A stretch of 64,000 nucleotides of DNA from Actinoplanes sp. NBC_00393. Lineage in GTDB: Bacteria > Actinomycetota > Actinomycetes > Mycobacteriales > Micromonosporaceae. Below are positions 8,992-60,057 of this stretch, piece after piece. How positions within the stretch are numbered: position 1 is the stretch's first letter; every line of letters starts with the position of its first letter. The notes under the pieces are model-generated. The model searched no databases and was not told the origin of the DNA. It worked only from the letters and a program-made list of their open reading frames with translations. The translations under genes and the position numbers were made by a program. The DNA lies in contig NZ_CP107942.1 of the NCBI RefSeq assembly GCF_036053395.1, positions 3,252,501 through 3,316,500 on the forward strand, in the 5' to 3' direction.

Positions 8992-9275
8992 CAGTACCTC
9001 CGTGGCTGCCCTTCACGGCAGGATCAGACACCTACCCCATCGGCACGTCTCGGGCGATCGTGAGCCGCCGCGATCACACTCGATGCGGATCCGCGTCGCC
9101 GCCCACCTCGGCTGGGGCCGGTACATCGTGGGCCGGGTGGTGGCGGGATCTGCACAGACCGGCGTGCACAGCCGTCATCCCGTCTGTTGCGGCACGGTGA
9201 CTCAGGTACAACCCGCCACGACCGACCAGTCTTTTGGAAGGTCGCCACCAGGACCCGTGCCGACGAAAGGCAGCG

Positions 9276-29982: not shown

Positions 29983-30012
29983 GATGTCCGTTCCTCGAAG
30001 GGGGTCTGCAAT

Positions 30013-32058: not shown

Positions 32059-32194
32059 GGCCCATCAGTCGGCCCGCGACTCCGGAAAGTTCCCATCCCG
32101 ATGATCTTCGGGGATGTCACCCGGCGCGTGGTTGAACTGTGCCCGGCCACCGGCCGTACGAGGGTGCGAAGCGTGTCGGGAGAGGATGCACCGG
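32059..32194. promoter_or_regulatory. Divergent control region of the copper island with GAAAGTTC motif
   Basis: 136 bp separate the CopD-CtaG start from the second sigma gene. GGAAAGTTCC at 32083-32092 resembles an ECF -35 element and is echoed by GCGAAAGTTC at 32828-32837. The two motifs lie 110 and 112 bp before the sigma and YcnI starts. A shared sigma-dependent promoter element is inferred; the -10 elements are not clear. Confidence 0.35.
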
Positions 32195-32755: not shown

Positions 32756-32941
32756 CATCGGCCGGCATCCGCGAAAGAGCCGCCGGCCAGCGTCGGCCGA
32801 CCCACCAGACGTGTGGCACAAAGTCGGCGAAAGTTCACGGGAACTATTCACGCACAGGCATCGACTCATGGGGCGAGACCGGACCGGGCGCTGTCACGCA
32901 TCCGTCCGGCCCACTGCCATCTATGGAGGGATGTCAATCCG

Positions 32942-33661
32942 ATGAACAGTGTTTCGCGCCGTACGGTCCAGCTCGGGGCGGCCGGTCTGGTCGCCACCGG
33001 CCTGCTGCTGATGACCGCTGCGCCCGCCGCGGCGCACGTCACCGTCTCCCCCACGGTGACCGCGGCCGGCGCCTACACCGTCCTGACGGTGTCGGTGCCG
33101 CACGGTTGCGACGGCGCGGGCACCACCAAGGTGGCCATCAAGGTGCCGGAGGAGATCGTCGCGGTGACGCCGACGGTGAACACCAACTGGACGGTCGAGA
33201 AGGTCATGGCGGATCTGAACCCGCCGGTCAAGGACAGCCACGGCAACGAGGTCACCCAGCGGGTGTCCGAGGTGGTCTACACCGCGAAGGCGCCGCTGCC
33301 CGACGGCATGCGCGACAAGTTCGAGCTGTCGCTGAAGCTGCCGGACACCCCGGGCAAGACGCTGGTCTTCCCGGCCGTGCAGACGTGTGAGAAGGGCGAG
33401 ACCGCCTGGGTGCAGGTGCCCGCCGCCGGGCAGAACGCCGACGAGCTCGAGCACCCGGCGCCCGGTTTCAAGGTCACCGAGGCGGAGAAGGAGGGCGCCG
33501 AGGCCGCCCCGGCCGTGCAGCAGGTGGCCGCCACCAGCGACACCGGCAACGAAGGCGACGGCGGCACCAGCGTGGTGAGCTGGATCGCGCTGGCGGCGGG
33601 CATCCTCGGTCTGGTGCTCGGCGGCTTGGCGCTGCTGCGTTCCCGCCGTCCCGCCGCCTGA
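32942..33661 (+). CDS. YcnI/DUF1775 copper-binding protein, first copy
   Basis: A 239-residue exported protein: signal peptide cleaved at AAA|H giving an N-terminal His (HVTVSPTV), YcnI beta domain with the conserved Trp in NTNWTVEKV, a Cys pair bracketing the sheet (HGCDGAG, VQTCEKGE), linker, and C-terminal membrane helix before RSRRPAA. YcnI binds Cu(II) through a mono-histidine brace. It is 1 bp from the CopC-CopD fusion gene, like ycnI-ycnJ of Bacillus. Confidence 0.9.
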   Translation: MNSVSRRTVQLGAAGLVATGLLLMTAAPAAAHVTVSPTVTAAGAYTVLTVSVPHGCDGAGTTKVAIKVPEEIVAVTPTVNTNWTVEKVMADLNPPVKDSHGNEVTQRVSEVVYTAKAPLPDGMRDKFELSLKLPDTPGKTLVFPAVQTCEKGETAWVQVPAAGQNADELEHPAPGFKVTEAEKEGAEAAPAVQQVAATSDTGNEGDGGTSVVSWIALAAGILGLVLGGLALLRSRRPAA

Positions 33662-33662
33662 G

Positions 33663-35363
33663 ATGCCGGTGACGGCTCTGTTGCTCCCGGTCCGGCCCAC
33701 CCGGCTGGCGGGCCTGGCCGGCGCCCTGCTCTGCGGCATCGTGCTCGCGCTCGGGCCGGCCACCCCGGCCCGGGCACACGCGGCGCTGGTCGGCACCGAC
33801 CCGGCCGACGGGGCGGTGCTGCCCGATGCCCCGGCCGAGGTCACGCTGACCTTCAACGAACCGGTCCAGCTGCGGCCGAACGGGGTACGGCTGCTCGACG
33901 CCGACGGTGTCGAGCAGCCGGCCGAGGCGCGGACGGTTGACACCCGGGTGGTCCTCACCCTGCCACCGGGGCTGGGTGACGGCAGTTATGTGGTGGCCTG
34001 GCGGGTGATCTCGGCCGACAGCCATCCGATCGCCGGCGGGCTCACCTTCGCGATCGGCGCTGCGAGCACCGGCACCGGCACCGTCGGGGCCACCGCGGTC
34101 ACCGAACCGAGCGCCGGGTTACGTCTGGCCCGTCAAGCCGGTGAGGCCCTCGGCTACCTCGGTGTGCTCGGCGCAGCGGGTCTGGCCGCCTTCGCGTCGC
34201 TGCTGCTGGCCGGCGGGACCGGCCGGGCGCGGCGCCGCATCTACCGGGTGCTGCGCTGGACGGTGCCGTCGACGATCGCCGTACTGGTGTTGTCGTTGCC
34301 CGTCGTCGTCGCCTGGCAGGACGGCGCCGACCTGGGTGCGCTGATCGATGCGGCGACCTGGCGGACCGCCCTGACGACCGACACCGCGCTCGCCGCGCTG
34401 CTCGCCGCCGCCGGGCTGATCGTGGCGTTGGTCGCCGCCCGTGCCACGAGGTCAGACAGTCCACCCGGCTTCGTCCCGGTCGTGGGTCTTGCGGGCACCG
34501 CGCTCGCGGTGGGCTCGTTGGCGCTGACCGGGCACACCCGTACGTTCGGCCCGTCCTGGCTGGTGCTCTCCGCCGACCTGCTGCACGTGGCCAACGCCGC
34601 GCTGTGGCTGGGTGGGCTGGCCGGCCTGACGGTGCTGCTGCTCCCGTCCTCGCAGGCCACCACCGAGGGCGCCGGGCGTACGGTGACCGCGTTCTCCCGT
34701 CTCGCCGCCTGGCTGGTCGCCGCGCTCGGCCTGACCGGTGTGCTGCTCGGCTGGCGCATCATCGGCTCCTGGTCAGCCCTGTTCGGTACGGCCTACGGCG
34801 TCGCGCTGCTGGTCAAAGTCGGCATCGTCGCGGTGATCGTCGGCATCGCCGGGTGGAACCGTTACCGCCTGCTGCCCCGCCTCGCCGCGACAGACGGCGC
34901 CGGCCCGGCGTGGCCCGCCCTGCGGCACACCGTCCGCGCCGAGGCGGGGCTGCTCGTCGCCGTCCTGGCCACCACCGGCGTCCTGGTCACGCAGAGTCCG
35001 GTCGAGGACAGCACGCCGTCGGTACCCGCCGACCGACCGGCGAGCGTCGAACTCGCCGCGCCGCTCGGCACCCACCAGGCAGCCGTCGTCCTCACCCCCG
35101 GCGCGGTCGGCATCAACTCGCTGGAACTGAGCATCGTCGACGGCGACCGGCAACCGGTCGATCCGCTGGACCCGCCGCAACTGCGGTTCACCCTGCCCGA
35201 CCGCGGCATCGGCCCATTGGAACGGCCCGCCTCGCGCACCGGACCCGGCCGTTACGAGGCCGTCGCCGAATTTCCCCTGCCCGGCCGATGGATCATCGAG
35301 GTGAACGTGCGGACGTCGAAGTACGAGAACCCGATCGCGCAGATCCCGGTGGAGATCCGATGA
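33663..35363 (+). CDS. CopC-CopD fusion (YcnJ-type copper import protein)
   Basis: A 566-residue protein: signal peptide cleaved at ARA|H; CopC domain (about 38-135, with HAALVGTDPADGAV and ISADSHPIAGG); CopD domain with eight or so helices (about 160-440; TWRTALTTDTALA, LLHVANAALWLGGLAG); C-terminal extracytoplasmic beta domain (about 460-566). YcnJ-type fusions import copper. It overlaps the second YcnI gene by 4 bp. Confidence 0.92.
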   Translation: MPVTALLLPVRPTRLAGLAGALLCGIVLALGPATPARAHAALVGTDPADGAVLPDAPAEVTLTFNEPVQLRPNGVRLLDADGVEQPAEARTVDTRVVLTLPPGLGDGSYVVAWRVISADSHPIAGGLTFAIGAASTGTGTVGATAVTEPSAGLRLARQAGEALGYLGVLGAAGLAAFASLLLAGGTGRARRRIYRVLRWTVPSTIAVLVLSLPVVVAWQDGADLGALIDAATWRTALTTDTALAALLAAAGLIVALVAARATRSDSPPGFVPVVGLAGTALAVGSLALTGHTRTFGPSWLVLSADLLHVANAALWLGGLAGLTVLLLPSSQATTEGAGRTVTAFSRLAAWLVAALGLTGVLLGWRIIGSWSALFGTAYGVALLVKVGIVAVIVGIAGWNRYRLLPRLAATDGAGPAWPALRHTVRAEAGLLVAVLATTGVLVTQSPVEDSTPSVPADRPASVELAAPLGTHQAAVVLTPGAVGINSLELSIVDGDRQPVDPLDPPQLRFTLPDRGIGPLERPASRTGPGRYEAVAEFPLPGRWIIEVNVRTSKYENPIAQIPVEIR

Positions 35364-48251: not shown

Positions 48252-48776
48252 TCAACGGGCGTAAAGCACGCACGGCTCGCCCGCGACGGTGTAGGCGGCC
48301 TGCCGTGTCCAGCCGGTCGACTCATAGAGCCTGACCGCGGCCGCGTCGGGGTGGGCGACGAGCCAGGCCCGGGGGTGGCCGGCGACATAGCGGGTGAGCA
48401 GCTTGCGGCCGAGCCCCTGTCCGCGGTGGGCGGGCGCGACCATCAGTTCGGCGACGACGACAGCGGGAGCGACCAGGAGCGCGGCGACCTGCGGGGTGAC
48501 GGCGTCGCGCAGGGCGCGGTCGAACTCGTTGTCCGCGGGCAGCAGGGCCGGGGCCGGCCAGCCGTAGACGGCTCCGGCGAGTTCGCCCTCGCGGTAGGCC
48601 ACGACGCCGTACGCTGCCGGGTTCGTGGTCTGCCCGGCCAGCCGTTGCGGATAGCCGGCGATCTGCTCGGGTGTCTCGTTCCAGGGCGGGCCGGAGAAGC
48701 ACTGCTGGTAGACCGGGAGAAGCTGGTCCTGCAGGCTGCGCAGGCGCCCGGCCGTGACCGCCGTGATGGCGTACAT
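48252..48776 (-). CDS. GNAT family acetyltransferase
   Basis: A 174-residue GNAT protein: beta4 VAELMVAPAHRGQGLGRKLL holds the acetyl-CoA pyrophosphate loop (HRGQGLG), followed by AVRLYESTGWTRQ. The substrate is unknown. Its ATG overlaps the preceding small gene by 1 bp, so it is the third gene of the superoxide dismutase operon. Confidence 0.88.
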   Translation of the reverse strand: MYAITAVTAGRLRSLQDQLLPVYQQCFSGPPWNETPEQIAGYPQRLAGQTTNPAAYGVVAYREGELAGAVYGWPAPALLPADNEFDRALRDAVTPQVAALLVAPAVVVAELMVAPAHRGQGLGRKLLTRYVAGHPRAWLVAHPDAAAVRLYESTGWTRQAAYTVAGEPCVLYAR

Positions 48777-49024
48777 CAGCCGGCCTCGGCAATGAGCAGG
48801 GTGAGTTCCTGGACCAGCTCGTCCATACTCTGCCCGGTCTGGGACCGGACGAGGCTGAGCGCCAGTTCGGCGAGCAGGCAGAAGCCTCGGGTACGCATGG
48901 CTTCGTCGCCGATGGAGGCGAGCAGTTCCTCGGCGCCGGCGAAGTCACCGCGGTGTTTGGCCGCGATGACTCCCGCCGCCTGTTGCGCCGCGAGGAATGC
49001 CGGCCCGGGGCCGGCGTCGGTCAC
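48776..49024 (-). CDS. Small helical protein between SOD and GNAT genes
   Basis: An 82-residue, strongly helical protein ([26 protein letters not shown] ... shape; Cys in [10 protein letters not shown]). Start GTG 49024 overlaps the SOD stop by 4 bp (GTGA) and its stop overlaps the GNAT start by 1 bp. No family recognised. The coupling implies a function with SOD expression or metallation (inference). Confidence 0.7.
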
Positions 49025-49650
49025 GGGGCGATGATGATCGGGTTGCCGGCGGCGCGGGCCGCGTCGAACCGCTTGGTCACGTCGGCCCAGTTGACCAGGT
49101 TCCACAGCCGGTCGACGTAGTCCGGGCGCACGTTCTTGTACTGCAGGTAGTACGCGTGCTCCCAGGCGTCGAAGACCAGGATCGGCGTGGAGCCCTGCCC
49201 GACGTTGCCGTGGTGGTCGTAGACCTGCTCCACGATCAGCCGCTGCGACAGCGGCTCCCAGGCCAGCACGCCCCAGCCGGAGCCCTGCACGCCCTTGGTC
49301 GCCGTGGACAGCTGCCCGGCGAACGCCTCGAACGAGCCGAAATGCTCGGTGATCGCCGCTTCGAGTTCGCCGTCGGGACGGTCGGCGCTGCTGCCCGGGC
49401 GCAGGTTGTTCCAGAAGATCGAGTGCAGCACGTGCCCGGACAGGTTGAACGCCAGGGTCTTCTCCAGCCCGACCAGCGTGCTGTAGTCGCCCTTGTCGCG
49501 CGCCTCGGCCAGCTGGTCGAGGGTGTCGTTGCTGCCCTTGACGTATGCCGCGTGGTGCTTGCTGTGGTGCAGCTCCAGGATCTGCCCCGACATCGCGGGC
49601 TCGAGCGCGCCGTAGTCGTAGGGCATGTCGGGAAGCGTGTAAACGGCCAT
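49021..49650 (-). CDS. sodF: Fe/Mn-type superoxide dismutase (SodF-like)
   Basis: A 209-residue SOD with metal ligands in [18 protein letters not shown], and [12 protein letters not shown] (Asp and His). The sequence closely resembles the Fe-SOD SodF of Streptomyces, including QGSGWGVLA and [16 protein letters not shown]. It detoxifies superoxide in the cytosol. ATG 49650. A Nur-like palindrome overlaps its likely promoter about 50 bp upstream, so nickel sufficiency should repress it. Confidence 0.92.
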
Positions 49651-49699
49651 CGGGACCTTCCGGTGATCAATTGACTTCTGCCTCGCCCAGTATGGACTA

Positions 49700-49716
49700 T
49701 TGCAAGTATCTGGCAA
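49700..49716 (-). promoter_or_regulatory. Nur-like box upstream of sodF
   Basis: TTGCAA-GTATC-TGGCAA, a 17-bp palindrome close to the Streptomyces Nur consensus TTGCAA-N5-TTGCAA (one changed base). On the minus strand it overlaps a possible promoter (TTGCCA, 16 bp, CATACT). It lies 49 bp from the sodF ATG. Confidence 0.65.
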
Positions 49717-50027
49717 CTACGAAATGCTGGCTATAAGGGTGGGGGTGTTGCTTGGCCGTGACCATCCGCCCCGGGCGGCGCGTGCGCCGTCGTCGACGAT
49801 GAAGGGCGTTCCGGCCCGCGATGATCCACGCCGCCGGAGCGCCCTTCACGCCTGGCATCCGCGTCGGCGGCCCGGCATCTCCAGCGGACTTTCAGCCGGC
49901 CTCGACCATCCACCGCAGCGCCTCGGCCGAACCCGAAGCACGGCAGCTGTTTCGGAGAGGACGTCGATGTCTGCACAAGCGAGGCACCACGCGAACGAGA
50001 TCATCAGCGTGCGGATGATCACGCTTA
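49717..50027. other. Intergenic stretch between the two Nur-like boxes
   Basis: About 310 bp without a convincing gene. Short open frames exist but lack ribosome sites and codon bias consistent with their neighbours. It separates the sodF and nickel-importer promoters. Confidence 0.5.
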
Positions 50028-50044
50028 TTGCCAGGAGTTGGCAG
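50028..50044 (+). promoter_or_regulatory. Nur-like box upstream of the nickel-type importer
   Basis: TTGCCA-GGAGT-TGGCAG, a 17-bp palindrome with the same TTGC..N5..GGCA frame as the sodF box, 48 bp before the importer start. It matches the Nur consensus less well than the first box, but shares the TGGCA right arm with it. Confidence 0.55.
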
Positions 50045-50092
50045 TTAGTAAAGGCTGGCATCAATGCCCGACGCCCCCAAGGTGAGCCATCC

Positions 50093-51682
50093 ATGCTGCC
50101 CAGAAAACGTCCTGCCGCCCTACTTGCCGCCGCCACCCTGATCGCTGCCACGCTGACGGCCTGCTCCGATCCGGACAGCAGCAGCGGCACCGGTGCCGCC
50201 CAGAACACCCTCGTGGTCGCCACCTCCGGCGAACCGGACACGCTGAACCCGGTGCTCGGCTACGGCGCCGACGGCTCCGCGCTGATGTTCGACGGCCTCG
50301 TCGCCCGCGACGCGCAGAACAGGCTGGTTCCGGCCCTGGCCGAGCAACTGCCGACGGTGGACGGCACCACCGTCACCGCCAAACTGCGCAGCGGCGTCAC
50401 CTTCCACGACGGCAGCCCGCTCACCGCCGAGGACGTCGTCTTCACCTACCGCTCCGTGCTCGACCCCAAGGTGGACTCCACGATCCGCTCCGACCTGGAC
50501 ATGCTCGACAAGGTCGAGGCGAGCGACCCGTCCACGGTCAAGTTCACCCTCAAGTACGCCTACGCGCCGTTCCTGCAACGGCTGAACCTCGGCATCGTCC
50601 CGGCGAAGGCGTTGCAGGGTCAGGACGTCAACAAGGCCGGCTTCAACCGCAAGCCGATCGGCACCGGGCCGTACAAGGTGGCGTCCTGGACGCCGGGTGA
50701 CCGGATGGTGCTGACCGCGAACGACACCTACTGGGGCGGCAAACCGGCCAACGACTCGGTCGTGGTCGCCTTCGTCCCGGACGACAACGTGCGCGCTCAG
50801 CGGGCCCGGGCCGGCGAGTTCGACGCGGTCGAGCTCGCACCGAAGCTGACCGGGGGCTTCACCGGCGTCGCCGGGTTCACCGTGCACAAGGTGCCGACCG
50901 CCGACTACCGCGGCGTGATGCTGCCGATGAAGGACCCGGTCACCGGTGACCCGGCGATCCGGCGGGCGCTGAACGTGGCCGTCGACCGCACGGCCATGGT
51001 CGCCGGCGTGCTCGGTGGGGCCGGCGAGCCCGCGTTCGGGCCGGTCCCGCCGACCTCCGAGTTCGCCGAGGCGTCGATCGCCGGGTCCGGCACGGCTGAC
51101 ACCGCCGCGGCGGCGAAGCTGCTCGACGAGGCCGGCTGGACGGCCGGCGCCGACGGGATCCGGGCCAAGGGCGCTCAGCGCGCGGAGTTGACGCTGATGT
51201 ACCCGGCCGCCGACAGCCTGCGCAAGGAACTCGCCCTCGCGGTCACCTCGGATGCCAAGAAGGCCGGGATCGAGATCAAGCCGGAGGGCCTGACCTGGGA
51301 CGCGATCACGCCGCGGATGAAGTCCGACGCGCTGATCATGGGCTGGGGCACGCCGTTCGACCCGGACTTCGTCTCCTACAAGCTGTTCGGCTCCCAGTTC
51401 GCCGAGCAGGGCTTCTTCAACCCGGGCTCCTACTCCTCGCCGGTCGTCGACAAGGCACTGCAGGACGGCCGCAGCCAGACCGACCCGGCCCAGCGCAAGG
51501 CCGCGTACGCCACCTTCCAGAAGCAACTCGCCGCCGACGCGCCCTGGGTGTTCCTCACCTATCTGCAGCACACCTACGTGATCCGCGACAACATCACCGG
51601 GGTCAGCCCGCGCGTCGAGGCGCACGAGCACGGCGTGGCCGGCGGCATCTGGTGGAACCTGCACACCTGGTCCAAGAATTGA
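50093..51682 (+). CDS. ABC importer substrate-binding lipoprotein (NikA/peptide-type)
   Basis: A 529-residue lipoprotein (LTAC, Cys24) of SBP family 5, with TLVVATSGEPDTLNPVLGYG, the TFHDGSPLTAEDVVFTY family signature and ADAPWVFLTYLQHTYV near the end. Family members bind nickel chelates, peptides or heme. The Nur-like box and sodF next to it favour nickel. AAGGTGAG precedes ATG 50093. First gene of a five-gene operon. Confidence 0.85.
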   Translation: MLPRKRPAALLAAATLIAATLTACSDPDSSSGTGAAQNTLVVATSGEPDTLNPVLGYGADGSALMFDGLVARDAQNRLVPALAEQLPTVDGTTVTAKLRSGVTFHDGSPLTAEDVVFTYRSVLDPKVDSTIRSDLDMLDKVEASDPSTVKFTLKYAYAPFLQRLNLGIVPAKALQGQDVNKAGFNRKPIGTGPYKVASWTPGDRMVLTANDTYWGGKPANDSVVVAFVPDDNVRAQRARAGEFDAVELAPKLTGGFTGVAGFTVHKVPTADYRGVMLPMKDPVTGDPAIRRALNVAVDRTAMVAGVLGGAGEPAFGPVPPTSEFAEASIAGSGTADTAAAAKLLDEAGWTAGADGIRAKGAQRAELTLMYPAADSLRKELALAVTSDAKKAGIEIKPEGLTWDAITPRMKSDALIMGWGTPFDPDFVSYKLFGSQFAEQGFFNPGSYSSPVVDKALQDGRSQTDPAQRKAAYATFQKQLAADAPWVFLTYLQHTYVIRDNITGVSPRVEAHEHGVAGGIWWNLHTWSKN

Positions 51683-51687
51683 TCACC

Positions 51688-52644
51688 GTGATCCGGCGGC
51701 GGCTCGCCGTCGCCGTACCGGTGCTGTTCGCCACCACGATCGGCATGTTCCTGCTCGGTGCGGCATCCCCGATGGACCCGGCCATGCAGTACGCCGGAGC
51801 CGCCGCGTTCACCGCCACCCCGGAGAACCTGGCGCAGATCCGCGCCAACTGGGGTGTCGACGACCCGCTGCCGGTGCAGTACTTCCGTTGGCTGTCCAAC
51901 CTCGTGCAGGGAGATCTGGGCTGGTCCACCTCCCGGCACGAGCCGGTCGCCGCGGTGATCGGCGCCCGGGCCGGCTGGACGCTGCTGCTGATCGGGATCA
52001 CCCTCGCGGTGGTCCTGATCGGCAGCCTCGTGCTGGGCACCATCGCCGCCTACCGGCGCGGCGGCCTGTTCGACCGGGCGTTGCGGGCGGCGGCGTACGC
52101 GGTCGAGTCGATGCCGGTCTTCTGGCTGGCCCTCGCGGCGATCGCCGTGTTCGCCCTGGCGCTGGGCTGGTTCCCGGCCGGTGGGCTGACTGATGTCACC
52201 GCCACGTCCACCTCGTTCACCGACGTGGCGCACCACCTCGTGCTCCCGGTGACCGTCCTGGCGATCTCGCAGGCGCCGTGGTTCCTGCTGTTCGTGCGTG
52301 ACTCGGTCGCCGAGAGCCTGCGTGACGACCACGTGCTCGCCGCCTGGGCCCGGGGCCTGCGCGGCCGTACCGTCCTGTTCGGCCACGCCCTGCGCACCGC
52401 GCTGCTGCCGTTCCTCACCCTGATCGGCACCCACCTGCCGGAGATCGTCGGCGGGTCGGTGCTGGTGGAGACCGTCTTCTCGCTGCCCGGACTGGGTGGG
52501 GTCACCGTGCAGGCCGCGCTCGGCAGCGACTTCCCGCTGCTGGCCGCGATCACGTTGATCACCACCGCGGTGGTGCTGCTGGCGAACCTGGCCACCGACC
52601 TGGCCTACACGGCCGCCGATCCCCGGGTGCGTATCGATGGCTGA
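51688..52644 (+). CDS. ABC importer permease (NikB-type)
   Basis: A 318-residue inner-membrane permease with N-terminal helix VAVPVLFATTIGMFLLG and five core helices. The EAA-like loop reads VLAAWARGLRGRTVLFGHALRTALLPF and the end GGSVLVETVFSLPGLGGVT is typical of the DppB/NikB family. GTG 51688 is used; TTG 51679 overlapping the previous stop (TTGA) is equally possible. Overlaps the next gene by 8 bp. Confidence 0.88.
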   Translation: MIRRRLAVAVPVLFATTIGMFLLGAASPMDPAMQYAGAAAFTATPENLAQIRANWGVDDPLPVQYFRWLSNLVQGDLGWSTSRHEPVAAVIGARAGWTLLLIGITLAVVLIGSLVLGTIAAYRRGGLFDRALRAAAYAVESMPVFWLALAAIAVFALALGWFPAGGLTDVTATSTSFTDVAHHLVLPVTVLAISQAPWFLLFVRDSVAESLRDDHVLAAWARGLRGRTVLFGHALRTALLPFLTLIGTHLPEIVGGSVLVETVFSLPGLGGVTVQAALGSDFPLLAAITLITTAVVLLANLATDLAYTAADPRVRIDG

Positions 52645-53485
52645 CCTCGCCCTGCCCCGCCCCCGCCGACTGCCGGTCCCGCAACTGTCGGCGGTCGTCC
52701 TCGTCGTCGCGCTGGGCGCCACCGTGCTCGTGCCCCTGCTGTGGCCTTTGGATCAGAGCGCCGTGGCGCTCGACAACATCGCGCAGCCGCCGTCGCCCGC
52801 CCATCCCGGCGGCACCGACGACCTGGGCCGCGACGTGCTGCACCGCAGCATCTACGGCCTGCGCGTCTCGCTGCTGGTCGGCATCGTCGCCGCCCTGGCC
52901 GCCTCCGTGCTCGGCGGCATCGTCGGCGGCCTCGCCGGCCTGCTCGGCGGCTGGACCGACCGGGTGCTCATGCGCGTCGTCGACACCCTCGCCGCGCTGC
53001 CGCACCTGCTGCTCGGCATTTTCATCGTGGCGATGCTGCGCCCCAGCCTCGGCGCGGTGATCCTGTCCATCGGGCTCACCCACTGGCTGTCCACCGCCCG
53101 CATCGTCCGCTCGGAACTGCTGACGCTGCGGACCCGCCCGTTCATCGACGCCGCGATCTCCGGCGGTGCAAGCCGCCGCCGCGTGCTCACCCGGCATCTG
53201 CTGCCGCACGTGGTGCCGAAGATCGCGCTGGCCACCACGTTGATGATCCCGCACGCGGTCTGGCACGAGACGTCGCTGTCGTTCCTCGGACTCGGCCTGC
53301 CGCCGCACCTCGCCTCCCTCGGCAACATGATCAACGACGGGCAGCGGTCCCTGCTGACCGGCGCCTGGTGGGCCAGCATCGTTCCCGGCCTGCTGATCAT
53401 CGTGGTCACCCTGGCCATCGCGGCGCTTGCCGGCCGCTGGCGCGACCGCCTCGATCCCCGAGTCCGAGCGGAGCTCAACCTATGA
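52637..53485 (+). CDS. ABC importer permease (NikC-type)
   Basis: A 282-residue DppC/NikC-type permease: HPGGTDDLGRDVLHRSIYG entrance motif, EAA loop FIDAAISGGASRRRVLTRHLLPH and the family motif WHETSLSFLGLGLPP. It pairs with the NikB-type subunit. Its stop overlaps the ATPase start by 4 bp. Confidence 0.9.
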   Translation: MADLALPRPRRLPVPQLSAVVLVVALGATVLVPLLWPLDQSAVALDNIAQPPSPAHPGGTDDLGRDVLHRSIYGLRVSLLVGIVAALAASVLGGIVGGLAGLLGGWTDRVLMRVVDTLAALPHLLLGIFIVAMLRPSLGAVILSIGLTHWLSTARIVRSELLTLRTRPFIDAAISGGASRRRVLTRHLLPHVVPKIALATTLMIPHAVWHETSLSFLGLGLPPHLASLGNMINDGQRSLLTGAWWASIVPGLLIIVVTLAIAALAGRWRDRLDPRVRAELNL

Positions 53486-54405
53486 CCGAAACCCTGCTGC
53501 GCACCGAAGGGCTCAGCGTGCGTTTCCGCTTGCGCGATGCGGTGGTTCAGGCGGTGACAGCGCTCGATCTGACCGTACGCCGGGGCGAGCTGCTCGCCGT
53601 GGTCGGCGAATCCGGCTGCGGCAAGTCGGTGCTCGCCCACGCGCTGCTCGGCCTGCTGCCCGCCAACGCCGTGGTCACGGGCCACGCCACCTTCGACGGC
53701 ACCGACCTGCTGCATTGCGGCGAGAAGCAACTCGCCCGCAGCATCCGCGGCCGGCGCCTCGGCCTGATCCCGCAGAGCCCCGCCACCGCGCTCACCGCCG
53801 TGCGCACCGGCCGCAAACTGCTCACCGAGACGCTGCGCACCCACGGCCGCGACCCGCACCTCGCCGACCAGGTCGCCGCTGACGCTGGTCTGCAGGCGGC
53901 TGACCTCGACCGCTACCCGTTCCAGCTGTCCGGCGGCATGTCGCAGCGCCTGGTGACCGCCCTCGCCCTCGCCCCTGATCCGGCCCTGCTGATCGCCGAC
54001 GAGCCGACGACCGGGCTGGACCGGCCGTTGGTCGACCACACCCTCGACCTGCTGCGCCGCCGCTGCGACGACGGCGGCGCGGTCCTGCTGATCACCCACG
54101 ACCTGGCCGCGGCCGAACGCGTCGCCGACACCGTCGCCGTCATGTACGCCAGCCGCGTCGTCGAGCACCGGGCGGCTTCCGAGGTGTTCACGGCACCGGC
54201 TCACCCGTACACCTCCGCGCTGTTGCAAGCCCTCCCCCAGCGGGAGTTCCTGCCCATCCCCGGCCACCCACCGATGCTGACCGCGCTCCCGCAGGGATGC
54301 GCGTTCGCCGCGCGCTGCCCGCGCGCCAGCGACGCGTGCGCGACCCAACCGGTCGGACCGGTCGCCTGCCACCACCCGCTGCTGCCCTCGGAGGTGCCGG
54401 CATGA
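53482..54405 (+). CDS. ABC importer ATPase (NikD-type)
   Basis: A 307-residue ATPase: Walker A GESGCGKS, signature LSGGMSQRL, Walker B LLIADEPTTGLD, His-loop ITHDLAA, and the OppD/F C-terminal cysteine region (GCAFAARCPRASDAC). Overlaps the next ATPase gene by 4 bp. Confidence 0.92.
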   Translation: MTETLLRTEGLSVRFRLRDAVVQAVTALDLTVRRGELLAVVGESGCGKSVLAHALLGLLPANAVVTGHATFDGTDLLHCGEKQLARSIRGRRLGLIPQSPATALTAVRTGRKLLTETLRTHGRDPHLADQVAADAGLQAADLDRYPFQLSGGMSQRLVTALALAPDPALLIADEPTTGLDRPLVDHTLDLLRRRCDDGGAVLLITHDLAAAERVADTVAVMYASRVVEHRAASEVFTAPAHPYTSALLQALPQREFLPIPGHPPMLTALPQGCAFAARCPRASDACATQPVGPVACHHPLLPSEVPA

Positions 54406-55067
54406 CCCTCGCCGCCTGCGGCGTCTCGGCCGGCTACCGCGGCCGCCGCGTGCTCGACGACGTCTCCCTGTCCGTCGCGCCCGGCGAGACCGTCGGTCTT
54501 CGCGGCCCCTCCGGCTGCGGAAAATCCACACTGGTACGGGTCCTCGCGCTGCTGCACGCCCCCACCGGCGGACACATCGACCTCGACGGGCAACGCGTCG
54601 ACGGCGCCCGGCATCGGGTTCCCGCGCAGACCCGTACCCGCATCGGGCTGCTGTTCCAAAGCCCCCGCGCGGCCAGCGACCCCCGGCTGAGCCTGGCCGA
54701 CCTGATCGCCGAACCGATGCGCGCCACCCGGGCACCCCGCGACCAGGTCCAGTCGCGGGTCGCCGAACTCGCCGAACGCGTCGGGCTCACCCCCGACCTG
54801 CTCACCCGGCGCCCCCACGCGGTCAGCGACGGCCAGCTGCAACGCGCCTGCCTGGCCAGGGCGCTGATACACCGGCCCCGGTACCTGCTGTGCGACGAGG
54901 CGACCACCATGCTGGACGCCTCCACCCAGGCACACGTGGCCGCCGTCATCAGACAGGAGCAGCAGGACAACGACACGGGAGTGCTGGTGGTCAGCCACGA
55001 CCCGGCACTGCTGACCCGCTGGGCCGACCGGATCACCGACATGCCGGGCCCGGCGCAAGCAGCCTGA
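54402..55067 (+). CDS. ABC importer ATPase (NikE-type)
   Basis: A 221-residue ATPase: Walker A GPSGCGKST, signature VSDGQLQRAC (variant), Walker B YLLCDEATTMLD and His-loop VVSHDPALL. It lacks the C-terminal cysteine extension of its partner, as NikE does. The two ATPases together drive the importer. Followed by a cobalamin riboswitch. Confidence 0.9.
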   Translation: MTLAACGVSAGYRGRRVLDDVSLSVAPGETVGLRGPSGCGKSTLVRVLALLHAPTGGHIDLDGQRVDGARHRVPAQTRTRIGLLFQSPRAASDPRLSLADLIAEPMRATRAPRDQVQSRVAELAERVGLTPDLLTRRPHAVSDGQLQRACLARALIHRPRYLLCDEATTMLDASTQAHVAAVIRQEQQDNDTGVLVVSHDPALLTRWADRITDMPGPAQAA

Positions 55068-55129
55068 GCTCTCCCCGCGCCCAGCGTCTGTTGTGCCGGC
55101 TCTCAGGCAACACTAAGTTGAGGGAGCCA

Positions 55130-55265
55130 ACTGCGGCGACGCGAGGGAAACCGGTGAGAGACCGGTGCGGTCGCGCCACTGTGACCGGCCCGTGTGAACG
55201 GGCCGGGAGTCAGGAAGCTCGCCCGCCGCAGCCCCACGAGCGGGACGCGTCATCCCGTAGGAGGT
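55130..55265 (+). promoter_or_regulatory. Cobalamin riboswitch upstream of cbtBA
   Basis: The conserved core is present in order: GAGGGAAACCGGTGAGAGACC, then GCGCCACTGTGACC, then GGGAGTCAGGAAGCTC, closed by GCGGCG/CGCCGC as P1. The hairpin CGGGACGCGTCATCCCG follows and its 3' side abuts the ribosome site AGGAGG (55259-55264), so B12 binding probably masks translation of cbtB. This form is typical of riboswitches before cobalt transporter genes. Confidence 0.9.
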
Positions 55266-55275
55266 TTGATCTCGC

Positions 55276-55479
55276 ATGTCCGACGTTCAGCCGGTTCACC
55301 CCACCGGCGCCCCCGCGATCTCCGGCCGGTTGCTCGGCACGGCGGTCGCGGTCGTCGTGGTGATGTTGCTGCTGGCCTATCTGGTCGCCTTCGACCAGGG
55401 CGCCATCTCGCAGAGCGGCGAGTACCTGCACGAGCTCATGCACGACGGCCGTCACCTGCTGGGTGTGCCGTGCCACTGA
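55276..55479 (+). CDS. cbtB: Cobalt transporter subunit CbtB
   Basis: A 67-residue single-pass protein: N-terminal tail, membrane helix LLGTAVAVVVVMLLLAYLVA and the His-rich C-terminus YLHELMHDGRHLLGVPCH that defines CbtB and probably binds cobalt. ATG 55276 is 11 nt after AGGAGG. Overlaps cbtA by 10 bp. Confidence 0.93.
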   Translation: MSDVQPVHPTGAPAISGRLLGTAVAVVVVMLLLAYLVAFDQGAISQSGEYLHELMHDGRHLLGVPCH

Positions 55480-56237
55480 CCGACTCCCCCAGCCGCGGTT
55501 TCGGTGCCCTGCTGATCCGTGGCCTGCTCGCCGGGCTGATCGCCGGCCTGCTGGCCGGCGGCTTCGCCTTCGTCTTCGGTGAGCCGCACATCGACGCCGC
55601 CATCGCCATCGAGGAGGCCGCCGCCGACGCCTCCGGCGACGCCGGTCATCACGAGGAGCCGGTCGTCAGCCGGGACGGGCAGAAAGCCGGTCTGGTGCTG
55701 GCCACCACGCTGTTCGGTCTGGCCATGGGCGGGATCTTCGCCACCGGGTACGCGTTGCTGCGCCGCCGGTTGCACACCGGCAGCGACAGCCGGGCCGCGC
55801 TGCAGCTGGCCGGCGCGGCGCTGCTCGGTGCCGTGGTGGTGCCGTTCCTGAAGTATCCGCCGAATCCGCCGGCGGTCGGTGATCCGGCCACCATCAACCA
55901 GCGCACCTGGAGTTATCTGGCGGCGCTGGTGCTCGGCCTGATCGCGGTCTGGGCCGCGGTGCTGGCCGCCCGCACCCAGCGCGTGGAATGGCGGCGAGCG
56001 GTCGGCGCCGTGGTCGGCTTCCTGGTGGTGGTCGCGGTGGCGTACCTGCTGCTGCCGACCATCGAGGAGGTTCCGGAGACGTTCCCGGCGACGTTGCTGT
56101 GGGACTTCCGGGTGACTTCGCTGGGCGTGCAGACGGTGCTGTGGACGGTGCTGGGCATCGCGTTCGCCGCGCTGGTCGCACCGCGCGCCACCCCGGCCCA
56201 GCCGGCGGCCCAGGTCGAGGAGACCGCCGCAGCGTAA
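55470..56237 (+). CDS. cbtA: Cobalt transporter subunit CbtA
   Basis: A 255-residue membrane protein with about six helices: LLIRGLLAGLIAGLLAGGFAFVFGEPHID at the start, the acidic-His loop GDAGHHEEPVVSRDGQKAG and LGAVVVPFLKYPPNPPAVGDP. These are CbtA family marks. GTG 55470 lies inside cbtB, giving translational coupling, so the riboswitch controls both. Confidence 0.92.
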   Translation: MPLTDSPSRGFGALLIRGLLAGLIAGLLAGGFAFVFGEPHIDAAIAIEEAAADASGDAGHHEEPVVSRDGQKAGLVLATTLFGLAMGGIFATGYALLRRRLHTGSDSRAALQLAGAALLGAVVVPFLKYPPNPPAVGDPATINQRTWSYLAALVLGLIAVWAAVLAARTQRVEWRRAVGAVVGFLVVVAVAYLLLPTIEEVPETFPATLLWDFRVTSLGVQTVLWTVLGIAFAALVAPRATPAQPAAQVEETAAA

Positions 56238-56242
56238 GAACG

Positions 56243-56280
56243 GCCAAGCGCCCCGGAAGCATGCTTCCGGGGCGCTTGGC
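56243..56280. terminator. Perfect 38-bp palindrome shared by convergent cbtA and nrdB
   Basis: Each arm is 19 bp (GCCAAGCGCCCCGGAAGCA), with no mismatch, followed by TTTT on the plus side. It fills the 47-bp gap between the convergent genes and can end transcription from both directions. Confidence 0.85.
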
Positions 56281-56284
56281 TTTT

Positions 56285-57280
56285 CTAGAAGTCGTCGTCG
56301 AAGCTCACGGTTCCGGAGACCCCGACCTGGTACGCCGAGACGCGCCGCTCGAAGAAGTTGGACAGCTCCTGGACGTCCTGCAGCTCCATGAACGCGAACG
56401 GGTTCTTGCTGCCGTAGACCGGCTCGATGCCGAGCGCGGCGAGCCGCCGGTCGGCGACGTGCTGCAGGTATTCCCGCATGTCACCGAGCGACATCCCGGA
56501 GACGCCCTGTTCGAGCAGATCGGCGGCGAACTGCACCTCGCACTCGACGGCCTCGGCGAGCATGTCGCGGACCTGCTGCTCCATGTCGGCGTCGAACAGG
56601 TCCGGCTCTTCGGCGCGGACCTGGTCGACCACGTCGAAAGCGAAGGCCATGTGCATGCTCTCGTCGCGGAACACCCAGTTGGTGCCGGACGCCAGGCCTT
56701 GCAGCACGCCGCGGGAGCGCAGGAAGTAGACGTAGGCGAAAGCGCCGTAGAAGAACAGGCCCTCGATGCAGGCGGCGAAGCAGATCACGTTGAGCAGGAA
56801 TGCCCGCCGGTCCTCCTTCGTCTTCAACTCGCGCAGCTCGAAGACCGAGTCGATCCACTTGAAGCAGAACTCGGCCTTGCGGGCGATCGACGGGATGTTC
56901 TCCACCGCCGCGAACGCCTCGAACCGCTCCTGCTCGTCCGGCACGTAGGTGTCGAGCAGGTTCAGATAGAACTGGACGTGCACGGCCTCCTCGAACAGCT
57001 GCCGCGACAGGTAGAGCCGGCCCTCCGGGGAGTTGACGTGCTGGTACAGGTTGAGGACCAGGTTGTTCGCCACGATGGTGTCACCGGTGGCGAAGAACGC
57101 GACCAACCGCGACACCAGGTGTTTCTCGGCGTCCGAGAGGCGGGCCAGGTCGGCGAGGTCGCCGTGCAGGTCGACCTCCTCGACGGTCCAGGTGTTCTTG
57201 ATGGCGTCCTTGAACCGGTCGAAGAAGTGCGGGTACTTCATCGGCCGCAGGGTCAGGTCCATTCCGGGGTCCAACAGCAT
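56285..57280 (-). CDS. nrdB: Class Ia ribonucleotide reductase beta subunit
   Basis: A 331-residue R2 protein: diiron ligands in FEEAVHVQFY and FRDESMHMAF. The radical Tyr is conserved at +4 from the ligand His (EEAVHVQFY), so this is a tyrosyl-radical rather than class Ic protein. It makes the radical for NrdA. ATG 57280 overlaps the nrdA stop by 1 bp (TAATG). Confidence 0.95.
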   Translation of the reverse strand: MLLDPGMDLTLRPMKYPHFFDRFKDAIKNTWTVEEVDLHGDLADLARLSDAEKHLVSRLVAFFATGDTIVANNLVLNLYQHVNSPEGRLYLSRQLFEEAVHVQFYLNLLDTYVPDEQERFEAFAAVENIPSIARKAEFCFKWIDSVFELRELKTKEDRRAFLLNVICFAACIEGLFFYGAFAYVYFLRSRGVLQGLASGTNWVFRDESMHMAFAFDVVDQVRAEEPDLFDADMEQQVRDMLAEAVECEVQFAADLLEQGVSGMSLGDMREYLQHVADRRLAALGIEPVYGSKNPFAFMELQDVQELSNFFERRVSAYQVGVSGTVSFDDDF

Positions 57281-59682
57281 TACTGGCACGCCTCACACGA
57301 TTCGGGGTTTTCCAGGGAGCAGAGTTCGGCCTCGGTCAGCGCCGGGATCAGCGACACCGGTGCGACCTGCACCGGAGCTGCCACCGGGGCGGTGACCGCG
57401 ACGGTGGCCTGCTGAATGCGCGTCGCGGGGCGCGACCGCAGGTAATAGCTGGTCTTGAGACCGGCCTTCCACGCGTAGAGGTACATCGAGGACAGCTTGT
57501 TGATCGTCGGCGCGGCCAGGAACAGGTTCAGCGACTGCGACTGATCGATGTACGGGGCACGCGCCGCCGCGAGTTCGATGAGCGCCTTCTGCGGCAGTTC
57601 CCACGCGGTCCGGAACAGCTCGCGCACGTCGGCGGGGATTTCGGTGATGCCCTGCACCGAGCCCTCGGCCCGCTTGATCGCCTCACGGATCGGGGCGGTC
57701 CACAGGCCGCGAGCCTTCAGCTCGCGTACCAGATAGGTGTTGATCTGAAGGAACTCACCCGACATGGTCTCGCGCTTGAACAGGTTGCTGACCTGCGGCT
57801 CGATGCATTCGTAGCAGCCGGCGATCGACGCGATCGTCGCCGTGGGCGCGATCGCGATCAGCAGCGAGTTCCGCAGCCCGTGCGCGGCGATCTTCTCCTT
57901 CACTGTGGCCCAGCGCTCGGTCTGCGAGACCGTGGCGCCCCACAGGTCCGGGTGCAGGTCACCCCGGGCGGCCCGGGTCTCCGGGTAGGCCGGGTGCGGC
58001 CCGAACTGCTGGGCGAGAGCGACCGACGACTCCAGGGCGGTCAGGAAGATCTCCTCCTGCACCCGGGTCGACAGTTCGCGGGCGGCGTCCGAGTCGAACG
58101 GCAGGCCCAGCGTGAAGAACGCGTCCTGCAGACCCATCAGGCCCAGCCCGACCGGCCGCCACCGCGGGTTCGACGCGGCAGCCTGCTGTGACGGGTAGTA
58201 GTTGATGTCGATGACCCGGTCCAGGTAGACCACCGCGGTCCGGACGGTCTCGCGCAGCTTCTCCCAGTTCACGCCTTCGGCGGTGGTGTGCGCGCCCAGG
58301 TTGATCGAGCCGAGGTTGCAGACCGCGGTCTCGGCGTCCGAGTTGACCTCGAGGATCTCGGTGCACAGGTTCGACAGGTGGATCGTGTTACCGGGAGAAC
58401 CGGTCTGGTTCGACAGGGCGTTGGAGCGGTCCTTGAAGGTCATCCAGCCGTTGCCGGTCTGCGCCAGCGTGCGCATCATCCGCCCGTACAGATCCCGGGC
58501 TTTGACGGTCTTGACGGCCTTCTTCTCGGCCGCCCGGTATGCCTCGGTGAATTCCTCACCGAACAGGTCGGGAAGCTCCGGGGCGTCGGACGGGTCGATC
58601 AGCGACCAGTCGGCGTCCGCCTCGACGCGGCGCATGAACTCGTCCGGGATCCAGTTCGCCAGGTTCAGGTTGTGGGTGCGCCGCGACTCCTCGCCGGTGT
58701 TGTCGCGCAGCTCCAGGAACTCCTCGACGTCCGGGTGCCACGGCTCCAGGTAGACGCAGGCCGCGCCCTTGCGCCGGCCACCCTGGTTGACCGCGGCGAC
58801 ACCGGCGTCGAGGGTCTTGAGGAACGGGACGATGCCGTTGGACTTGCCGTTCGTGCCGCGGATGAGCGCGCCCCGGCCCCGGACCCGGGTCCAGGAGATG
58901 CCGATACCGCCGGAGAACTTCGACAGTTTCGCAACCTGGTGGTACCGCTCGTAGATCGAGTCCAGTTCGTCGCGCGGCGAGTCGACCAGGAAACACGACG
59001 ACATCTGGGTGTGCCGGGTCCCGGAGTTGAACAGCGTCGGCGAGCTGGGCAGGTACGCCAGCGAGGACATCAGCCGGTAGAAGCCGATCGCTTCGCGGGC
59101 GTCCTTCGACAGGCCGCAGGCCACCCGCAGCAGCCAGTACTGCGGGGTCTCCACGACGACGCGCTCCTGCGGGTGGCGCAGCAGGTAGCGGTCGGCGACG
59201 GTCCGCAGGCCGAAGTACTCGAACCGCAGGTCACCGGCCGCGTCGATGGCGTCGTCGAGCTTGCGGGCGTTGCGGGCCACGAACGCCGCGGTCTCGTCGC
59301 CGATCAGACCGAGACCATGGGCGTAGCGGATCGACTGGCTGAAGCTCGCCACCTGCTGGCCGCGAACCTCCTTGTCGACGTACGCGGCCAGCAGCCGGGC
59401 GGCGAGCTTGGAGTACTGCGGCTCCTCACCGATCAGCTCGGCGGCCGTCTGGATCGACAATTTGTCCAGCTCAGCGGTGGTCGCTCCGTCGTAGAGCCCA
59501 CTGATCGTCTTGGTCGCGACCCGCAGCGGATCCACCTCGTCGAGGTCCGCGACCCACAACTCGACCGCCTTGACGATCTTGTTGACGTCGACCGGTTCCA
59601 GGTCACCGTTGCGTTTGCGGACCTGCATCACGTGCCGGCGCTGCTCCGGCACCACTGCACTGGTTTCCGCCGTGGTCGTCAT
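57280..59682 (-). CDS. nrdA: Class Ia ribonucleotide reductase alpha subunit
   Basis: An 800-residue R1 protein: N-terminal ATP cone (about 19-110), redox Cys pair in MSSCFLV and AVCNLGSINL, thiyl Cys in NLCTEI, radical-transfer tyrosines in KTSYYLRS and C-terminal reducing pair CEAC. It reduces ribonucleotides to deoxyribonucleotides aerobically without B12. Transcribed from a promoter with a B12 riboswitch in its 140-nt-distant leader, as in Streptomyces nrdABS. Confidence 0.96.
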   Translation of the reverse strand: MTTTAETSAVVPEQRRHVMQVRKRNGDLEPVDVNKIVKAVELWVADLDEVDPLRVATKTISGLYDGATTAELDKLSIQTAAELIGEEPQYSKLAARLLAAYVDKEVRGQQVASFSQSIRYAHGLGLIGDETAAFVARNARKLDDAIDAAGDLRFEYFGLRTVADRYLLRHPQERVVVETPQYWLLRVACGLSKDAREAIGFYRLMSSLAYLPSSPTLFNSGTRHTQMSSCFLVDSPRDELDSIYERYHQVAKLSKFSGGIGISWTRVRGRGALIRGTNGKSNGIVPFLKTLDAGVAAVNQGGRRKGAACVYLEPWHPDVEEFLELRDNTGEESRRTHNLNLANWIPDEFMRRVEADADWSLIDPSDAPELPDLFGEEFTEAYRAAEKKAVKTVKARDLYGRMMRTLAQTGNGWMTFKDRSNALSNQTGSPGNTIHLSNLCTEILEVNSDAETAVCNLGSINLGAHTTAEGVNWEKLRETVRTAVVYLDRVIDINYYPSQQAAASNPRWRPVGLGLMGLQDAFFTLGLPFDSDAARELSTRVQEEIFLTALESSVALAQQFGPHPAYPETRAARGDLHPDLWGATVSQTERWATVKEKIAAHGLRNSLLIAIAPTATIASIAGCYECIEPQVSNLFKRETMSGEFLQINTYLVRELKARGLWTAPIREAIKRAEGSVQGITEIPADVRELFRTAWELPQKALIELAAARAPYIDQSQSLNLFLAAPTINKLSSMYLYAWKAGLKTSYYLRSRPATRIQQATVAVTAPVAAPVQVAPVSLIPALTEAELCSLENPESCEACQ

Positions 59683-59821
59683 ATGCCCCCTCCTTCATGC
59701 CCTCTCGACAGGTCGTCGGGCACGCAGGAGGACGCCACCGGGACCACGGCAGGCGCCCGGTTCGATGGCGTCGGCCGTCCCACGCGACCTTCGACCGCCG
59801 TGCGCCCCCTCGGCACACGGC

Positions 59822-60003
59822 GCGCTGGCAGGTCTTCGGACTCGTGGGCGGCCTACTCGCTCCTACTGGCCGTCGCTTCCCAGGCCGGAGCCCAGTGCTT
59901 CATGACGGCGGTCGTTCCCACTCACCGCTGCGGGGCAGTCCCGGTATCACACCGGGTTCCCTGTTGCCTCGGCCGGGCCCTTGAAAGGCTCGGCCGAACC
60001 AGC
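59822..60003 (-). promoter_or_regulatory. Cobalamin riboswitch upstream of nrdAB
   Basis: On the minus strand the order is AACAGGGAACCCGGTGTGAT, CTGCCCCGCAGCGGTGAG, GAAGCACTGG, CCTGGGAAGCGACGG, AGTAGG and CACGAGTCCGAAGACCTGCC: the full B12-box layout with the L5-L13 elements. B12 is expected to shut off this class Ia enzyme in favour of a class II (NrdJ) enzyme encoded elsewhere. Confidence 0.93.
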
Positions 60004-60010
60004 TGCGGGC

Positions 60011-60057
60011 ACACCATATATGGGCGGCCGCCGAAAGTCCTACCCCACATGGTGTGT
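60011..60057 (-). promoter_or_regulatory. Pair of NrdR-like boxes
   Basis: ACACCATATATGGGCG (60011-60026) and ACCCCACATGGTGTGT (60042-60057) match the NrdR consensus ACACTATATATAGTGT at 11 and 10 of 16 positions. Their starts are 31 bp apart, three helical turns, the usual geometry of NrdR box pairs. They lie just upstream of the riboswitch, at the expected nrdAB promoter. Confidence 0.55.

Follow-up and report, generated by a model that had tools for sequence, protein, structure and literature searches.

Neighboring nickel, cobalt and vitamin B12 economy units in Actinoplanes sp. NBC_00393: a probable shortage hub with two sensors

Why should genes that answer to separate signals stand side by side? 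The question is raised by a 64-kb stretch of the soil actinobacterium Actinoplanes sp. NBC_00393 (the window hereafter; G000:C1:3252501-3316500, on one contig of 11.43 Mb), in which a Pfam and Rfam scan places four units as neighbors: sodF, encoding a superoxide dismutase (SOD); nikABCDE, a Nik-type importer operon; cbtBA, encoding a predicted cobalt transporter; and nrdAB, encoding a class I ribonucleotide reductase (RNR). These are adjoining units under separate control and not a single operon: sodF is transcribed leftward and nikABCDE rightward out of one intergenic region, and nrdAB is convergent with cbtBA. It is probable, and we hold it with good confidence, that the stretch is a hub for nickel, cobalt and B12 shortage with two sensors, the units of which may have been gained, lost and moved together. 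The initial annotation had located the four units, two Nur-like boxes and two cobalamin riboswitches where Pfam, Rfam and a pattern search now find them, and had proposed that nickel selects the SOD and B12 the RNR, while uptake of each metal rises when its cofactor is short. In the following, genomes bear G numbers (G000 being this one) and loci L numbers. The features of the nickel side are:

49021..49650, minus strand: sodF, Fe/Mn-family SOD, predicted nickel-independent stand-in for sodN (PF02777, E 3e-34; PF00081, E 4e-29; PDB relatives 8bhx and 1ids)
49700..49716: Nur-type box of sodF, TTGCAAGTATCTGGCAA, exact match to the pattern
50028..50044: Nur-type box of nik, TTGCCAGGAGTTGGCAG, 1 mismatch
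50093-55067, plus strand: nikABCDE (SBP_bac_5, two BPD_transp_1, two ABC_tran)
50093..51682, plus strand: nikA, solute-binding protein of 529 amino acids (PF00496)
51688..52644, plus strand: nikB, permease (PF00528)
52637..53485, plus strand: nikC, permease (PF00528)
53482..54405, plus strand: nikD, ATPase (PF00005)
54402..55067, plus strand: nikE, ATPase (PF00005)

With at most 1 mismatch, the Nur-type palindrome occurs twice in the window, both times between sodF and nikA (mean in shuffled sequence, 0.07), and on the minus strand the TTGCCA half of the sodF box supplies the leading hexamer of what resembles a promoter (49716-49689). Genome-wide, exact matches were found at 2 positions, one of them at sodF. 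The other (G000:C1:10676664-10676680, in L165) immediately precedes a gene whose product, at least 200 amino acids long, begins with a signal-like sequence and ends in a tail rich in proline and threonine. A box with at most 1 mismatch, at most 400 nt upstream, precedes 15/15 sodF copies (10 exact) and 11/11 nik operons (5 exact, the adjoining sodF box of the window being excluded), counts that are partly circular, since the pattern was shaped on the boxes first found here. As controls, for which the same pattern was used, 1/98 nrdA, 0/20 metE and 0/11 cbtB copies have a match within 700 nt, and the position of the sole nrdA match identifies it as the sodF box of Micromonospora sp. MP36, a genome in which sodF and nrdAB adjoin divergently. 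A consensus for Nur boxes is known from S. coelicolor.

The importer foreseen by the initial annotation is present, with its nikA start at about 50093, and has the NikABCDE architecture of a solute-binding protein of family 5, two permeases and two ATPases, consecutive by Pfam; the "Fe-type" SOD of that annotation belongs, by sequence, to the Fe/Mn family. The nik operon is predicted to be nickel-specific from its Nur boxes and its relatives. The best PDB sequence match of NikA is 8efz_A (E 2e-102), followed by 4oet and others, among them the nickel-binding YpYntA (4ofl). A cargo other than nickel, such as a peptide or a cobalt-containing metal chelate, which would leave sodF alone as the nickel arm, is unlikely: family 5 is broad and the NCBIfam nickel-transporter equivalog models score below their cut-offs on the nik genes, against which stand the Nur-type boxes on all 11 orthologous operons examined and the fact that NikA has several nickel binders, such as 4ofl, among its relatives of solved structure. 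A second nikABCDE copy (G000:C1:11383923-11388906, in L147), about 44 kb from the contig end, has a NikA 95% and a NikC 100% identical and its own Nur-type box.

The partner enzymes are encoded elsewhere in the genome, as the initial annotation had anticipated for sodN (TIGR02753, 158.8 bits) and nrdJ (NF005122, 1621 bits, with nrdR upstream of it); metH (PF02965, 342 bits) is present in addition. The nur gene that it also expected has a clear candidate among the five FUR-family genes, two of which were compared with solved structures: the orthologue at 7819738 has as its best solved match 3eyy (E 4.8e-46; next, 2.9e-22), which we take to be S. coelicolor Nur, and the gene at 7693780 matches 3eyy at only E 8e-10. 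With nickel in good supply, nickel-loaded Nur would keep sodF and nikABCDE repressed; in shortage, both the importer and an SOD that needs no nickel would be expressed, while the nickel-dependent SOD loses its metal. In Streptomyces, nik is under Nur control. The present locus resembles the Nur regulon of S. coelicolor in the Nur-type palindromes before sodF and nik and in the presence of sodN and a nur orthologue, and it differs in that sodF and nik are divergent neighbors and sodF is directly followed by an overlapping open reading frame (ORF). Inverse use of an iron and a nickel SOD is expected here, as in S. coelicolor (PMC3919588). Unlike the s-SodF route of that species, the complementarity between sodF and sodN is only 9 nt; comparison of 229 nt around the sodN start with 623 nt from the sodF stop onward places this longest perfect match at the level of shuffled sequence (mean 9.1, largest 14), and an antisense RNA of the s-SodF type was thus not seen. 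A 2-mismatch Nur-like palindrome (L024:3495-3511) starts 97 nt before sodN, and could reflect direct control of sodN by Nur.

The second sensor would be RNA. The features of the cobalt and B12 side in the window are:

55091..55119, plus strand: probable cbtBA promoter, TTGTGC, 17 nt, TAAGTT (by eye from the leader alignment)
55146..55218, plus strand: short B12 riboswitch aptamer of cbtBA (RF00174, 37.1 bits)
55276..55479, plus strand: cbtB (PF09489, E 8e-13)
55470..56237, plus strand: cbtA, predicted cobalt transporter (PF09490, E 4e-76)
56243..56280: perfect inverted repeat, rich in GC, where the ends of cbtA and nrdB converge (by eye), a probable two-way terminator
56285..57280, minus strand: nrdB, class I RNR small chain (PF00268, E 1e-80)
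57280..59682, minus strand: nrdA, class I RNR large chain, predicted B12-independent stand-in for nrdJ (PF02867, PF00317, PF03477)
59810..60018, minus strand: long B12 riboswitch aptamer of nrdAB (RF00174, 96.5 bits)

The initial annotation closed the island at 60057. Counted on the window scale, it extends as far as roughly 73.3 kb, with metE (PF01717, PF08267), nik2 (a second Nik-type transporter) and a MerR-family gene. Each of these is led by a B12 riboswitch or a leader resembling one, and all three, lying beyond the window, were outside the view of that annotation. A genome-wide search with RF00174 (gathering score, 31.5 bits) returned 8 sites, four of which precede cbtBA (3307646), nrdAB (3312310), metE (3318613) and the MerR gene (3325558), above the cut-off and on the same strand; the sites of metE and the MerR gene lie beyond the window. 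The remaining four stand at a remnant cbtBA (2.92 Mb), a cobaltochelatase-type gene (TIGR02442, below cut-off), cobN (TIGR02257, above cut-off) and a transporter binding-protein gene (TIGR04281, below cut-off). A ninth, short site before nik2ABC (L017:9288-9373) looks like the adenosylcobalamin (AdoCbl) riboswitch RF01482, and at 39.4 bits against a cut-off of 50 (E 6.3e-6) it is not classed as a member. Five of these nine known or probable B12 riboswitches fall within 18.2 kb, which was reached in 0/200,000 random placements. Coenzyme B12 bound to the leader RNAs would shut cbtBA, nrdAB, metE, nik2ABC and merR; as B12 falls, cobalt import would be switched on, and a B12-free RNR and methionine synthase would replace NrdJ and MetH.

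In relatives, a riboswitch pattern, backed by Rfam matches on the loci scanned, precedes 83/98 nrdA (20/20 genus rows and 63/78 named loci), 18/20 metE and 9/11 cbtB copies. The DNA examined comprised 52 stretches from congeners and this genome, 12 more, 13 stretches of this genome and 80 named nrdA loci; identity floors in the upstream-element count were 80% for SodF, 65% for NikA, 60% for CbtB, NrdA and MerR, and 75% for MetE. Rows without full upstream DNA were dropped (2/100 nrdA, 1/12 cbtB), and at least 4 genomes were counted twice (G007/L099, G022/L048, G056/L035, G225/L034). Control of nrdABS by a B12 riboswitch in Streptomyces was reportedly described by Borovok in 2006. The present arrangement is like it in having an RF00174 aptamer before nrdAB and nrdJ elsewhere, and unlike it in that nrdAB sits with metE, cbtBA, nik2 and merR, each with its own B12 riboswitch or riboswitch-like leader. 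Similarly, a cbtBA unit behind a B12 riboswitch agrees with the CbtAB predicted cobalt transporters (PMC2667541), from which the hub differs in also holding nik2, beside which no ATPase gene was seen, behind an AdoCbl-type leader.

The 11 aligned cbtBA leaders, two of them from this genome, have in common a -35/-10-like pair, an aptamer, a hairpin and a ribosome site (by eye). A consensus promoter scan did not report the cbtBA promoter at 55091..55119. Read-through from nik is unlikely to be the sole source of cbtBA mRNA, since the -35/-10-like pair precedes the aptamer in all 11 leaders. At 2.92 Mb (G000:C1:2919386-2920105; L020, L157, L158), the remnant cbtBA behind its riboswitch retains about the last 100 residues of CbtA, about 147 N-terminal residues being gone, and the island cbtBA may have replaced this copy. 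The nik2ABC unit (L017:9288-12610, leader included) encodes a Nik-type binding protein and two permeases, after which no ATPase gene was seen; nik2 may borrow NikDE. Relatives of nik2 were found in Actinoplanes and Pseudonocardia.

Between nrdAB and metE, the DNA from 60100 through 64000 and onward to roughly 65.6 kb has the look of an insert of 5 to 6 kb (left edge approximate). Three ORFs scanned in it had no Pfam match, and its far end abuts a 4HBT thioesterase gene that is truncated on the 5' side and immediately precedes metE. In G041 and G043, nrdAB and metE are divergent with close facing riboswitches, which resembles the arrangement found here minus the presumed insert.

Is such a neighborhood peculiar to one strain? 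In a genus sample of 60 genomes, this one included, CbtA was carried by 59, NrdB by 47, MetE by 16, SodF by 13 and NikA by 10, and two genes within 35 kb were scored as linked (6 partial CbtA rows of 66 omitted, genome size taken as 10 Mb, contig breaks ignored). SodF and NikA were linked in 5/5 genomes with both (expected 0.05; 4/4 without this genome), NrdB and MetE in 10/16 (0.13; 9/15), SodF and MetE in 5/10 (0.07; 4/9), and MetE and NikA in 4/5 (0.04; 3/4). NrdB was linked to NikA in 5/9 and to SodF in 4/12 genomes, and CbtA to SodF in 2/13, to MetE in 3/16 and to NikA in 2/10. For all ten pairs the expectation was below 0.4, and this genome was among the linked cases in each. Furthermore, sodF and metE co-occur, metE being present in 10/13 genomes with sodF vs 6/47 without (Fisher, 2e-5). 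The paired units cluster in differing orders across relatives, with other clusters in G005, G037, G003, G055, G006 and G225; outside the genus, sodF adjoins nrdAB in Micromonospora sp. MP36. Unit pairs in varied orders would be expected if genes useful in the same type of soil were gained, lost and moved together.

Several points weigh against the hub. The four units occur together within 35 kb in 0/59 sampled congeners, many of them drafts, so that a conserved sodF-nik-cbt-nrd order, which the initial annotation expected in related genomes, is rejected. Linkage of CbtA with NrdB is rare (3/47, this genome included), and the linkage counts are not independent of descent. The riboswitch pattern is missing at 15/98 nrdA copies, at the metE of L120 and L152 and at the cbtB of L067 and L153; the L120 metE sits directly after nrdAB, and the L152 metE has no Rfam match either. 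To these may be added the partial circularity of the Nur box counts and the nickel-transporter models below cut-off. The proposed logic, by which nickel selects the SOD, B12 selects the RNR and uptake rises in shortage, is partly supported: its partner enzymes are present and its Nur boxes and riboswitches conserved, in keeping with the Streptomyces work, and its prediction on gene order failed. A chance neighborhood, in which accessory genes merely adjoin in one strain and ordinary circuits coincide, could claim the 0/59 count and the nik copy that stands apart at 11.39 Mb with a 95% identical NikA. It is nevertheless very unlikely, as several pairs cluster above random placement even with this genome removed, five of nine riboswitches lie in 18 kb, and other clusters recur in the six congeners and in Micromonospora sp. 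MP36.

A stronger alternative to repeated gathering is that a single ancestral metal-sparing island was eroded and shuffled in each lineage, the present clusters being its relics. We regard this as possible, although clearly short of an even prospect. In its favor, G005, G037 and G003 share blocks (sodF, UreG-like, TsaD, Def, FUR-family, FecBCD, metE and nrdAB genes), and in this genome a truncated 4HBT gene persists beside metE. When 18 MetE rows were placed on a tree (those of L040 and L078 left out), the label "linked to nrdAB" changes 4 times against a shuffled mean of 5.3; 79/500 shuffled labellings were as low, and the tree thus shows neither one origin nor firmly several. Against it, at least 2 of these changes are forced; the MetE of this genome and its nearest relatives (G055, G026, G029 and G016, these four unlinked) stand apart from the linked clade of seven rows; and among the 60 genomes a CbtA close to metE or nrdB is confined to this one and G055, with distant homologues so placed in G006 and G022.

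The neighborhoods of G005, G037 and G003 add a FecBCD-type transporter with a methyltransferase, a CobW/HypB/UreG-family GTPase, TsaD, a peptide deformylase and FUR-family genes (Pfam for the G003 copies and one G037 FUR gene, similarity or eye for the others, UreG by eye). AlaS relatives group in G003, G005, G006 and G040, and NicO relatives in G003, G006 and G037 (Pfam on the G003 copies). Nur-type palindromes precede the FecBCD operon in G037 and G003 (L115 and L118; that of G003 with 1 mismatch) and the NicO gene in G037. None of these extra families grouped with a gene of the own island at 45% identity. This putative metal-sparing island lies near sodF in L112, L115 and L118.

At the far edge of the hub, the MerR gene itself bears on how B12 is sensed:

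L017:12600-13760 (G000:C1:3324600-3325760): MerR gene with a B12 riboswitch in front, about 13 kb past 60057 and beside metE

Its product has a MerR helix-turn-helix domain, aligns with CarH over most of its length (3whp and 5c8d; 5c8d, E 5e-6) and, judged by sequence, is a descendant of CarH/LitR. In CarH, E141, H142 and H177 bind AdoCbl (PMC11796333). Among the best 120 of 980 matches, the MerR protein and its 23 nearest relatives (at least 54% identity) have no precomputed B12-binding domain, and 35 of the next 36 carry at least one. In an alignment of the first 60 proteins, the histidines at the EH and GxxH-like motif columns are present in 0/24 members of this clade vs 36/36 others; two of the 24 have a histidine one column before the EH histidine, and in a few a histidine stands two or three columns ahead of the GxxH-like position. 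The clade holds at least 24 proteins. The NCBIfam CarH model scores 26.1 bits against a cut-off of 400 and the ligand residues are absent, so that a true CarH is rejected in favor of a CarH-derived protein.

Rfam places a B12 riboswitch before the MerR gene in 6/7 clade genomes with upstream DNA (G000, G005, G006, G026, G037, G225), a count from which a broken copy in G215 with 137 nt of upstream DNA was excluded; a regular expression saw the riboswitch in 3/8 rows. None was found by Rfam before the clade gene of G014, nor beside 15 more distant relatives scanned (46-50% identity, own B12 domains unchecked; 20 of the 30 loci L167-L196, at most 11 candidates scored per genome). With the ligand histidines lost in 24/24 proteins and the riboswitch present in 6/7 genomes, B12 sensing may have moved from the MerR protein to its mRNA leader. 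This protein is like CarH/LitR in aligning with CarH and with relatives that retain Pfam B12 domains; it is unlike those photoreceptors in lacking the EH and GxxH-like histidines and in having a B12 riboswitch before its gene. LitR proteins of classes II, IV and V are thought not to bind B12, and the available portion of that source (PMC9758184) mentions no riboswitch for them, unlike the gene described here.

The 4HBT thioesterase gene accompanies the MerR gene in relatives: the two are divergent in G005, as well as in G006 and G225 with a small ORF between them. Six intact 4HBT copies were scanned, and 5 of them are preceded by a B12 riboswitch of their own (G005, G006, G037, G225 and Micromonospora tulbaghiae L045), at:

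L207:9562-10288, 4HBT gene behind its own riboswitch
L113:9881-10519, the same
L115:1651-2409, the same
L117:14822-15670, the same
L045:7192-8018, the same

The sixth (M. costi, L039:13561-14046) has none of its own but is co-oriented with nrdB and downstream of it, behind the nrdAB riboswitch. The copy of this genome (L017:6076-6411) lacks the first 48 residues, and that of G044 is broken. The thioesterase could relieve a build-up of methylmalonyl- or propionyl-CoA when a third B12 enzyme, methylmalonyl-CoA mutase, fails. In G041 and G043 a methylmalonyl-CoA mutase block lies beside the divergent metE/nrdAB (small subunit: TIGR00642, 474.8 bits, below cut-off, in G041; by eye in G043). In S. 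griseus, a potential cobalamin riboswitch lies on a methylmalonate-semialdehyde dehydrogenase gene with valine-to-propanoyl-CoA genes downstream (PMC8914203), which is consistent with a B12 link to propionyl-CoA. Taken jointly, it is conceivable, at not much less than even chances, that sensing moved from the MerR protein to RNA, that the regulator would be made only in B12 shortage and would signal to promoters without riboswitches, that the thioesterase would relieve acyl-CoA, and that one nickel, cobalt and B12 island would serve SOD, RNR, methionine synthase and mutase.

On the other side of sodF, two genes complete the local picture:

48776..49024, minus strand: ORF of 82 amino acids, its start overlapping the sodF stop, no Pfam family matched
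48252..48776, minus strand: GNAT acetyltransferase gene (PF00583, E 3e-10), downstream of sodF and the 82-aa ORF

The 82-aa ORF in turn meets the GNAT gene. A relative of the ORF lies directly 3' of sodF in 12 of the 15 sodF copies checked, this one included, and was not found at sodF in L141 or L058; in L139 (G016), an 82-aa-type ORF stands beside a separate SodF piece 3.6 kb from a nearly whole sodF (the two at 4613-5088 and 8671-9267). Full-length relatives of the GNAT gene are within about 5 kb of sodF in L115, L118 and L138. Elsewhere in the window, 27693-35363 holds copper-set-like genes (CopC/YcnI/YcnJ-like by eye), and a similar-looking set is near metE-merR in G225 (L207). Beyond the hub, an iron-box-like repeat (by eye, L017 at about 15440) precedes a siderophore-interacting protein gene; metE, an AraC gene and a siderophore-interacting protein gene are neighbors in G029 too.

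Each of these circuits is already known singly, and the hub is a new combination; the MerR protein is possibly a new regulator variant at its edge. Among the matches listed from titles and abstract openings of the open-licence literature, no sodF-nik-cbt-nrd cluster and no riboswitch-controlled LitR/CarH relative was found. Work on nickel and cobalt shortage usually takes one gene at a time; the stretch would offer a compact hub with two independent sensors and multiple outputs, while kindred clusters in varied orders provide a natural test of why separately controlled, related genes co-locate. The hub predicts new members of the B12 response, namely a thioesterase and an importer without its own ATPase. 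If the reading given above is true, the MerR protein would be a directly testable instance of a signal whose sensor has shifted from protein to RNA.

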